A program made the translations under genes and the position numbers. A DNA stretch of 43,888 nt from Bacteroidota bacterium. Lineage in GTDB: Bacteria > Bacteroidota > Bacteroidia > JAFLBG01. This document shows positions 36,674 to 39,386 of this stretch, in pieces. Positions within the stretch are counted from its first letter, which is position 1. Each line of letters begins with the position of its first letter. Where the stretch lies: assembly GCA_017303975.1 (NCBI GenBank), contig JAFLBG010000032.1:1-43888 (forward strand), written 5' to 3'. Below the pieces are notes generated by a model that searched no databases, was not told where the DNA came from, and saw only the letters and a list, made by a program, of their open reading frames with translations.

Positions 36674-37723
36674 TTACTTGCAATCTTGCATATACATTTT
36701 TGCCTGAATGGAACCGGATGATTCTGCGATTTCCCAGTCTTTGCAGGCTCCATCCGTGTCTCGCAACATTTCTTTTGCTATTCCTCTGTTTACATATGCG
36801 TCTGCATATTGCTTGTTAATACTAATTGCTTTGTTGTAATCGTCTATTGCTCCTTTGTAATCTTTAAGCTTATATTTTGCTGCGGCTCTGTTGTTTAGTG
36901 CAAATGCATATTGTGGGTTTAGTGCCAATGCCATGTTGAACATAGACATGGCTTCTTCGTAATTTCCTGCATCATAATAGGCGCTTCCCAAGTTATTGTA
37001 TAGTGCATAATCATCTTTTTTAATTTTTAAAGCACTTGAATAATCTACGATTGCGCCTCTAAAATCGCCTTTTTTGCGCTTGGTACTTGCCAAGTTATTG
37101 TATGTAAAATACATGTCTGGATTGGCAATCAACGCTTTTTTGTAATCTGCAATCGCACCATCATAGTCTTCCAATTGTTTTTTTGCACTAGCTCTGTCGT
37201 TGTATGCGTAGGCATAATCAGGTTTTAGTTGGATAGCTTTGTCAAAATCAGCAATTGCTCCTTGGTAATCTTTATTGTCGAATCGAATCACTCCTCGGTA
37301 GTAAAATGCTTGTTCGTAAAGTGGTCGCAGCTCTATTACTTTGGAGTAATCTTGTTCGGCACCTTTTATGTCTTTGGCTGCTTGCTTTAGCTTGGCACGC
37401 TCGTAGTAAGCGTTATCGGCAGCGGGGTTTAGTTCGATACACTTGTTTAAGTCGGCAAGTGCATTTTCTGGTTGTTTTAGTTCAATATGTACAATTGAGC
37501 GATTGTAGTAAGCCTTTTCAAAATCCGATTTAAGTAAAATTGCTTTATTAAATTCGCTCAATGCTTCGCTGTATTTTTTGTTGGTAAATAAGGAAATGCC
37601 GTTATTGTAAGCAATGTCGGCATCTTGCGAAGCATCTGTACTTTTTACCTTTACTGTATCTGTTTGCGCACCGACTGAGAGTGTGATGGCGCATAAAAGT
37701 AAAACCCAAAAATATTTTTGCAT
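36674..37723 (-). CDS. Exported TPR-repeat protein
   Basis: The 349-residue product has a signal peptide (MQKYFWVLLLCAITLSVGAQ) followed by about nine tandem 34-residue TPR units (for example YNNGISLFTNKKYSEALSEF, AYNDRASAKKQLEDYDGAIA, LNNRAAAKYKLKDYKGAIDD), ending with DTDGACKDWEIAESSG and a final Cys-Lys. It is likely a periplasmic scaffold for protein contacts. The PorE-like gene begins 36 bases downstream, so the two are probably cotranscribed. Confidence 0.9.
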   Translation of the reverse strand: MQKYFWVLLLCAITLSVGAQTDTVKVKSTDASQDADIAYNNGISLFTNKKYSEALSEFNKAILLKSDFEKAYYNRSIVHIELKQPENALADLNKCIELNPAADNAYYERAKLKQAAKDIKGAEQDYSKVIELRPLYEQAFYYRGVIRFDNKDYQGAIADFDKAIQLKPDYAYAYNDRASAKKQLEDYDGAIADYKKALIANPDMYFTYNNLASTKRKKGDFRGAIVDYSSALKIKKDDYALYNNLGSAYYDAGNYEEAMSMFNMALALNPQYAFALNNRAAAKYKLKDYKGAIDDYNKAISINKQYADAYVNRGIAKEMLRDTDGACKDWEIAESSGSIQAKMYMQDCK

Positions 37724-37778: not shown

Positions 37779-37817
37779 CTTACAAAAGATGTTTTGAACG
37801 AGAGCGTATTGATAAGT
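37779..37817. repeat. 39-bp direct repeat, left copy (truncated 3' end of the DUF58 gene)
   Basis: Identical to 38456-38494 over the first 29 bases and 37/39 overall. Read on the minus strand it still encodes LSIRSRSKHLL-stop, the end of the DUF58 protein (LLKRSRSKHLL-stop), although it is detached from that gene by about 640 bases carrying a toxin-antitoxin pair. Confidence 0.92.
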
Positions 37818-37846
37818 CAAGACTACCCAATTAATCAATAAAGTTG

Positions 37847-37854
37847 TACTTTTG
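37847..37854 (+). promoter_or_regulatory. -7 box (TACTTTTG) of the toxin-antitoxin operon
   Basis: TACTTTTG matches TAnnTTTG and lies 55 bases before the antitoxin ATG at 37910, inside the repeat-bounded cassette. No clear -33 box is visible. Confidence 0.4.
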
Positions 37855-37909
37855 TTGTAAATGAATTTGGTCTTTTTATGAGAGCCATAAAACTTAAGTG
37901 TAGTTTCCA

Positions 37910-38146
37910 ATGAATAAAGATTTATTGATCAATAAAACGCTAGCAATGTTAGCGAAGCTTCCAGAAAAAAGAATTGAAGAGGTTGCTAATTATATTGATT
38001 TTATTTTAAAAAAATACGAAGAAGAGCTTTTGCAAAAAGGAATTGAGAAGATGACTAATTCGTCTAAAAGCTATGAATTTCTTGCTAGCGACCCCGATAT
38101 TTATACAGTAAATGATATAATAGAAAAATATAGTGCAAAAGGGTGA
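37910..38146 (+). CDS. Antitoxin of a type II toxin-antitoxin pair (DUF2281-like)
   Basis: The 78-residue product starts NKDLLINKTLAMLAKLPEKR and continues IEEVANYIDFILKKYEEEL, a helix-rich sequence resembling the small DUF2281-type antitoxins, with an acidic C-terminal end (ASDPDIYTVNDIIEKYS) that would bind the toxin. It precedes and overlaps the PemK/MazF-like toxin gene by 14 bases, the standard order for such pairs. It presumably neutralises the toxin and represses the operon; both are inference. Its stop is TGA. Confidence 0.8.
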   Translation: MNKDLLINKTLAMLAKLPEKRIEEVANYIDFILKKYEEELLQKGIEKMTNSSKSYEFLASDPDIYTVNDIIEKYSAKG

Positions 38147-38450
38147 TATAGTACTAGTCAAATTTCCTTTTACGGATTTAGCGGGAGCCAAACTTCGACC
38201 GGCTTTGATATTAAGCAGTACTGATGCGGATGCGATTTTAATCTTTATAACAACACAACTTCAGTGGAAAGAAAGGTTTGATATTGTTTTGAAGTGTACA
38301 CCAAAAAATGGGCTTAAAAAAGAATCTTTATTACGAGTAAATAAAATAGCAACAGTCGATAAAAAATTAATTGTTGGGAAAATTGGTTCTGCTGAAGAAA
38401 TAATAAAAACACTTAATGCAAATCTTATAGAGCTTTTTAACCTAAAGTAA
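38133..38450 (+). CDS. PemK/MazF-family toxin (endoribonuclease)
   Basis: The 105-residue product starts with GTG inside the antitoxin gene. QKGDIVLVKFPFTDLAGAKL with RPALILSS is the conserved N-terminal barrel of PemK/MazF toxins, and SLLRVNKIATVDKKLIVGKI the second half with the substrate-contact Ser/Arg. Family members cut mRNA at short motifs. It ends five bases before the right-hand direct repeat. The cassette is convergent with the DUF58 gene. Confidence 0.88.
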   Translation: MQKGDIVLVKFPFTDLAGAKLRPALILSSTDADAILIFITTQLQWKERFDIVLKCTPKNGLKKESLLRVNKIATVDKKLIVGKIGSAEEIIKTLNANLIELFNLK

Positions 38451-38455
38451 TTTTT

Positions 38456-38494
38456 CTTACAAAAGATGTTTTGAACGAGAGCGTTTTAATAAGT
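38456..38494. repeat. 39-bp direct repeat, right copy (intact 3' end of the DUF58 gene)
   Basis: This copy contains the real stop and last ~11 codons of the DUF58 gene (minus strand). It matches 37779-37817 at 37/39 positions. The two copies bracket 638 bases holding the toxin-antitoxin operon. Confidence 0.92.
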
Positions 38495-39386
38495 AGGGAA
38501 GAATAATTTGCTCAAAACCATTATTGATGTCCGCTTCAATAAAATCTATCTTATATTGAATGCATCGTTGTCGTATTTCTGCATTTCGAACTTCAACTAT
38601 TTTTTGGTATTGGTCTTTTATCGTGGTTGGATTAAGTTTTACTATTTCATTCGTTTCTAAATCAACAAATTGATATGGCCTGTTTTCTAATTCTAATTTT
38701 ACTTCCTTCGATTTGTCGAATGTATGAAACAGCACTACTTCGTGTTTGTTGTATTTTAGGTGTTGTAAGGCAGAAAATAATTGTTCTTTGTTATGTGCAT
38801 CGTCCATCATGTCGCTAAATACAATAATCAAAGAACGTTTGGGTTGTACTTCTGCAATTTGATGCAAAGCAGCTACAATGTTTGTTTTTTGCGACTGTTG
38901 AGGCTTTGATAATTGTAATAGTTTTTCCAGTTCTTGTAGTAAATAGATATGATGTGCTGAAGTTGATTTGCTGGGGGTTTGTACGTTTATAGATTCTGTG
39001 AAAACAGTTAATCCAATAGCATCACGTTGTTTTTTTAACAATTCTATTAGCACAGCGCAGGCATAAACAGAAAAGCCAATTTTGTTTAATTTTTTTTCAG
39101 AAACTGTTTCAACTTCCGGAAAGTACATAGAAGAGGAGGAGTCGATAACTAAGCGGCAGCGGAGGTTTGTTTCTTCTTCGTATTTTTTTACAAACAACTT
39201 GTCTGTCCGTCCGTATAATTTCCAGTCAATGTGTTTACTCGATTCTCCTTTGTTGTATAGCCGGTGTTCTGCAAATTCGACAGAAAAGCCATGAAATGGA
39301 CTTTTGTGCATGCCGGTAATAAAACCCTCTACAACTTGCCGAGCATAAAATTCTAAATACGAATATTGGTGGGTTCTATTGAGCAT
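38457..39386 (-). CDS. DUF58 domain protein (vWA-like, MoxR-associated type)
   Basis: The 309-residue product has FAEHRLYNKGESSKHIDWKL, the conserved DUF58 core, followed by a von Willebrand A-like fold with a MIDAS-type LVIDSSSSM (DxSxS) and IIVFSDMMDD. No membrane segment is evident. DUF58 proteins usually sit beside a MoxR AAA ATPase and vWA proteins, but no MoxR gene is found here next to it. Its last codons are duplicated at 37779-37817. It is separated from trxA by a terminator. Confidence 0.88.
   Translation of the reverse strand: MLNRTHQYSYLEFYARQVVEGFITGMHKSPFHGFSVEFAEHRLYNKGESSKHIDWKLYGRTDKLFVKKYEEETNLRCRLVIDSSSSMYFPEVETVSEKKLNKIGFSVYACAVLIELLKKQRDAIGLTVFTESINVQTPSKSTSAHHIYLLQELEKLLQLSKPQQSQKTNIVAALHQIAEVQPKRSLIIVFSDMMDDAHNKEQLFSALQHLKYNKHEVVLFHTFDKSKEVKLELENRPYQFVDLETNEIVKLNPTTIKDQYQKIVEVRNAEIRQRCIQYKIDFIEADINNGFEQIILPYLLKRSRSKHLL

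Follow-up and report, generated by a model that had tools for sequence, protein, structure and literature searches.

Restriction-modification (R-M) systems have reportedly inserted into genomes with long target duplication (work of Nobusato, 2000, and Furuta, 2010).

Target duplications recorded for R-M systems are both long and variable (PMC3031569, PMC3874152). For T6SS effector-immunity and Rhs modules, displacement by homology-facilitated illegitimate recombination has been put forward as a hypothesis (PMC5361080). In Microcystis, a ParDE-like pair linked to MaOC1 is fenced by 152-bp direct repeats (PMC7935541), and chromosomal integrons hold promoter-bearing toxin-antitoxin (TA) units between repeated sites (PMC2654758). 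The locus considered here is a TA pair enclosed by two copies of the end of a DUF58 gene. It lies in a stretch of 43,888 nucleotides from a Bacteroidota bacterium (contig JAFLBG010000032.1), and “the window” below refers to this whole stretch.

Each of these systems is similar to our case in part. With the R-M systems, the common traits are a selfish unit of the toxin-antidote kind, long and variable direct target repeats, and the lack of a recombinase of its own; the differences are that TA pairs are concerned here, mostly in Bacteroidota, that the repeat is a gene terminus bounded at a stop or start codon, and that synonymous differences are frequent between the copies at other TA loci, suggestive of a second genome. 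The T6SS and Rhs modules share homology on one side and an illegitimate join on the other, displaced gene parts, and successive insertions leading to arrays; however, there the effector's own end is replaced, whereas here intracellular TA pairs stand beside unrelated intact genes (PMC5361080). The Microcystis pair is likewise a chromosomal type II TA system between direct repeats just past a gene, but its repeat starts 14 bp after the stop codon, contains inverted repeats and is intergenic (PMC7935541). The likeness to integron cassettes ends at the repeated sites, since no common attC-like site is present in our loci and every repeat is a different coding sequence (PMC2654758). Taken alone, the window fits known insertions. 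We found no TA pair associated with homology-facilitated illegitimate recombination or with gene-end duplication in the open-access literature, and gene-terminal duplications across TA families appear not to have been described there.

The DUF58 locus

The window contains a 39-bp direct repeat with copies at positions 37779-37817 and 38456-38494 of the plus strand. The copies are identical over 29 of 29 bases and then over 8 of 10 (37/39 overall). Sequence and repeat comparison delimit a segment of 638 bp between them (37818-38455, no strand assigned), which holds two small genes only and no recombinase. The repeat, the length of the enclosed segment and the lack of an integrase in it were all proposed in a first-pass annotation, and our analysis recovered each of them. 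The 29-mer occurs twice in the window and in none of 100 dinucleotide-preserving shuffles; these two copies are also its only sites in the 3.43-Mb host assembly with up to three mismatches allowed. The flanks align with a score of 34.5, against a cross-locus median of 9.5 and a 99th percentile of 13.8. At 39 bp the repeat is longer than the usual transposon duplication; the flank repeats of other loci are up to about 195 bp long, or longer.

The right copy is the working 3' end of the DUF58 gene (38457-39386, minus strand, 309 aa), which ends in RSRSKHLL-stop. The left, displaced copy encodes LSIRSRSKHLL-stop on the minus strand and is attached to no gene, just as it was initially read. Both differences between the copies are non-synonymous and sit in the displaced one. 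The tails of DUF58 proteins at other loci mostly follow KRx[KR][ML]x, and the window gene has KRSRSKHLL; the C-terminal SKHLL (38457-38490) is absent from the other DUF58 loci examined. Considering that this odd tail is found in both copies, it is either older than the duplication or arrived with it.

The toxin gene (38133-38450, plus strand, 105 aa) has a GTG start and overlaps the antitoxin-like gene (37910-38146, plus strand, 78 aa). Its product matches PF02452 with 47.4 bits, above the curated cut-off of 23.1, and solved MazF/PemK chains are recovered with the family profile (E of about 2e-5). By these profile matches, the toxin is a member of the PemK/MazF type II family and a predicted RNase, in agreement with the first annotation. 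The antitoxin named there is less certain: the gene remains under both curated cut-offs (DUF2281, 21.2 bits versus 26.5; VapB, 23.3 versus 60), and its position and the homologous pairs support the antitoxin role. PADLOC returned no match for the window TA pair. As for the promoter-like box suggested earlier, we read by eye TACTTTTG at 37847-37854 (plus strand) as a putative promoter element matching the Bacteroidota –7 box TAnnTTTG; no clear –33 box was seen by eye with it.

Six base pairs separate the stop codon of the toxin gene from that of the DUF58 gene. On the other side of the insert, a TPR-repeat gene (36674-37723, minus strand) is defined by its open reading frame and a profile match. 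Without the insert, the start of this gene would lie about 55 bp past the DUF58 stop in the presumed joined state.

We gathered 109 other DUF58 loci with a protein identity of about 53-65%, the nearest at about 64%. Besides the window, 96 loci had at least 700 bp downstream; the TA pair was present in none of them (0/96), nor was there a second gene end within 1.5 kb (0/96). Since all the compared loci are distant, these counts indicate that the state of the window is unusual and probably derived, rather than presenting a true empty site. The two arrangements that had been named in advance as speaking against insertion, i.e., both copies in every relative or two copies without the TA pair, were not seen in these 96 distant loci.

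Gene ends repeated around other TA pairs

Within the class, 38 of 395 genomes encode a homologous toxin, and further genomes do as well. Concerning a carrier, plasmid matches to the toxin were below 60% identity and phage records gave none. A flank repeat was called when the local alignment score between flanks of about 700 bp was at least 20. Such repeats surround 21 of 83 distinct PemK loci and 14 of 68 ParE loci, that is, 35 of 151 TA loci in Bacteroidota and relatives. They surround 1 of 70 acetyltransferase (GNAT) loci, a control set unmatched for recent horizontal transfer, and 12 of 1086 pseudo-cassettes in DUF58 loci (Fisher P of about 5e-6 and 4e-24, respectively, for the pooled TA loci). 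In a smaller control of 20-kb contexts from TA genomes, 10 of 350 were flanked, partly next to TA pairs or in repeat-rich stretches.

Not every flank repeat is a gene end. The repeats in L120, L146, L155, L171, L238 and several ParE loci are dispersed, palindromic or intergenic and were excluded; tandem paralogues (L129) and an Rhs-like locus (L163) were also excluded from the gene-terminal cases. L125, L137, L138, L145, L255 and L265 are outside the classified set. In L145 the contig breaks within the second copy of a 37-bp flank repeat adjoining a PemK TA pair.

There are 15 loci with gene-terminal repeats (about 14 independent ones; L304 and L380, from one genus and in the same gene, may share one event), each with a different neighbouring gene whose 3' or 5' terminus makes up the repeat. 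Beside the DUF58 gene, the scars involve an epimerase (L115), a 276-aa gene (L121), a T9SS-type protein (L122), LytTR regulators (L142, L264), a class-V aminotransferase (L296), asnS (L307), a 486-aa ORF (L369) and gene 5' ends (L262, L304, L311, L319, L380). The shortest repeat measures 23 bp and the longest about 195 bp or more; 14 of the 15 repeats are bounded at a stop or start codon. By our reading, the repeat in the nine 3' cases stops at most 2 bp short of the stop codon's last base or 1 bp past it, and in the five 5' cases it starts on the first or second base of the start codon; the exception (L253) ends a few codons short of the stop. None of the 70 acetyltransferase loci has a gene-terminal repeat (P = 0.004).

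Some of these loci present additional features. In the oriented sequence of L307 (reverse strand, 1-1900) the 3' end of asnS occurs three times: besides the native end, a copy follows a HEPN/nucleotidyltransferase pair and another follows a ParE-type pair. The copies separate the pairs, and the whole resembles a small array of TA units. In L253 (oriented 1180-2520) the 3' end of one gene occurs three times, around and beside a PemK TA pair. A gene-order search for L121 revealed no further toxin. Relatives of L142 have the LytTR gene, and the neighbour on the other side is not conserved. For L264, a genus search returned only its own genome and a dispersed repeat; the latter, about 140 bp long (889-1035), lies upstream of the displaced gene end and has about 40 or more copies across many contigs of G854. 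Relatives of L262 confirmed the glycosylase gene and its downstream neighbour, and its native 5' end was not distinguished.

Empty sites are available for the epimerase locus, L115. In G083 the TA pair separates the epimerase gene from a PPIase gene convergent with it; two genomes from the same genus, G233 and G304, have a gap of about 50-55 bp between the two genes and no TA pair in it. The distance from the displaced epimerase end to the PPIase gene in G083 is about that of the native stop in G233 and G304. Together with the 0/96 count at the DUF58 loci, these empty sites back the initial proposal of an insertion at a gene 3' end that leaves a displaced copy behind. Three further genomes (G044, G205 and G258) have other sequence in the gap and no displaced end. 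This gap sequence (L228, L229 and L230, respectively) differs between species of one genus, i.e., the gap is a small insertion hot spot.

The paired copies were compared codon by codon at ten loci, the window left out. Third codon positions account for 39 of 58 differences (P = 1e-7 against 1/3, and 0.002 against 0.48, the share we would roughly expect if one copy were under selection and the other neutral). Among the 49 changed codons, 29 are synonymous. Such a synonymous bias is unexpected for a dead duplicate of the host's own gene, so the paired copies at those loci probably derive from two functional orthologues. Along the repeats of L262, L264 and L142, divergence between the copies gives way to identity, the pattern expected after a crossover; no such shift is visible in the window.

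Origin of the duplicated gene end

We believe, with somewhat better than even confidence, that the scar in the window arose from one homologous crossover in the gene end and one illegitimate join of the incoming DNA. A type II TA pair, with a PemK-like toxin and a VapB/DUF2281-like antitoxin, would have arrived on DNA that also bore a DUF58 gene end. On one side a homologous crossover would have occurred within the DUF58 3' end, and on the other an illegitimate join within the same gene end. This would leave the DUF58 gene intact with the TA pair directly adjoining it, and a truncated duplicate of the gene end on the far side of the pair. It would be a case of homology-facilitated illegitimate recombination, of the kind associated with natural transformation or conjugation. 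An insert between direct repeats would normally be prone to excision; cells losing the antitoxin would be killed, so that TA inserts would retain the scar. The duplication, its lack in distant relatives, its recurrence at other gene ends and the synonymous bias elsewhere are observed; how the DNA recombined, how it entered and what addiction contributes are inferred.

A crossover combined with an illegitimate join accounts for the variable targets, the use of both gene ends, the intact genes and the synonymous differences. A codon-precise repeat edge is also to be expected from it wherever conservation covers the coding sequence and does not extend into the intergenic one. Two observations fit less well. 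In L122, L142 and L369 the copies are 97-98% identical and the similarity still halts at the stop codon, so this edge is not well explained by the divergence of orthologues alone. In L115 the displaced copy lacks changes shared with G044, and it is this copy, not the gene-attached one, that looks foreign by sequence; a circular donor or a later transfer is then needed, which counts against the crossover with an illegitimate join.

Among other explanations, a long target duplication of the host's own gene end, in which the displaced copy has drifted since, seems to us improbable though worth serious consideration. It fits the window, where the two differences are both non-synonymous and in the displaced copy; this copy may thus simply drift after a same-lineage duplication, and the two changes are compatible with an imported gene end and with an own duplicate alike. 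Target duplications that are long and variable are on record for R-M systems (PMC3031569, PMC3874152). However, copies at the other loci differ chiefly at third codon positions, and 14 of 15 repeats have their edge at a stop or start codon, which is not what a target of random length would give. The first-pass annotation had admitted an illegitimate event that duplicated the target; this is closer to our reading than its attL/attR proposal, although the synonymous differences elsewhere oppose a pure duplication.

The attL/attR proposal itself, with a site-specific recombinase acting in trans, the cassette moving as a circle and the gene end being restored, was put forward initially, but we consider it unlikely and do not retain it as the leading explanation. 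It is tempting for the reasons that gene 3' ends are classic integrase targets, that the gene is restored and the displaced copy has a clean start and end, and that L307 and L253 resemble successive insertions at one end. Nonetheless, homologous TA pairs occur at unrelated gene ends, some of them 5' ends, with no common attachment site; the repeats, 23 to about 195 bp long or longer, vary in length and surround a unit without a recombinase; the host genome has no further copy of the window's repeat; and synonymous differences separate paired copies at other loci.

It is very improbable that the displaced end is the remnant of a tandem or paralogous DUF58 gene, with the TA pair landing between the two genes or replacing most of the second one, since, even though paralogues explain one surveyed flank repeat (L129), no second close DUF58 copy is present here in the 96 other loci and the two further DUF58-family genes of the host are only 26-27% identical.

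Extending the crossover with an illegitimate join to the other loci, we propose only tentatively, and regard as doubtful, that TA pairs of unrelated families spread as mobile units without a recombinase: the terminus of a neighbouring gene would travel with them as a portable homology arm, the join would fall at the stop or start codon, and addiction would keep the scar. The excess of flank repeats around TA pairs over acetyltransferases could be due to addiction blocking excision between the repeats, an idea that is to be read with controls unmatched for recent transfer.

The scars bear on how chromosomal TA pairs move without a plasmid, phage or transposase carrier. If about a tenth of such loci have gene-terminal duplications, these would mark insertion events that could be polarised and assigned to a donor lineage. 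Whether addiction protects otherwise unstable inserts would then be directly testable.
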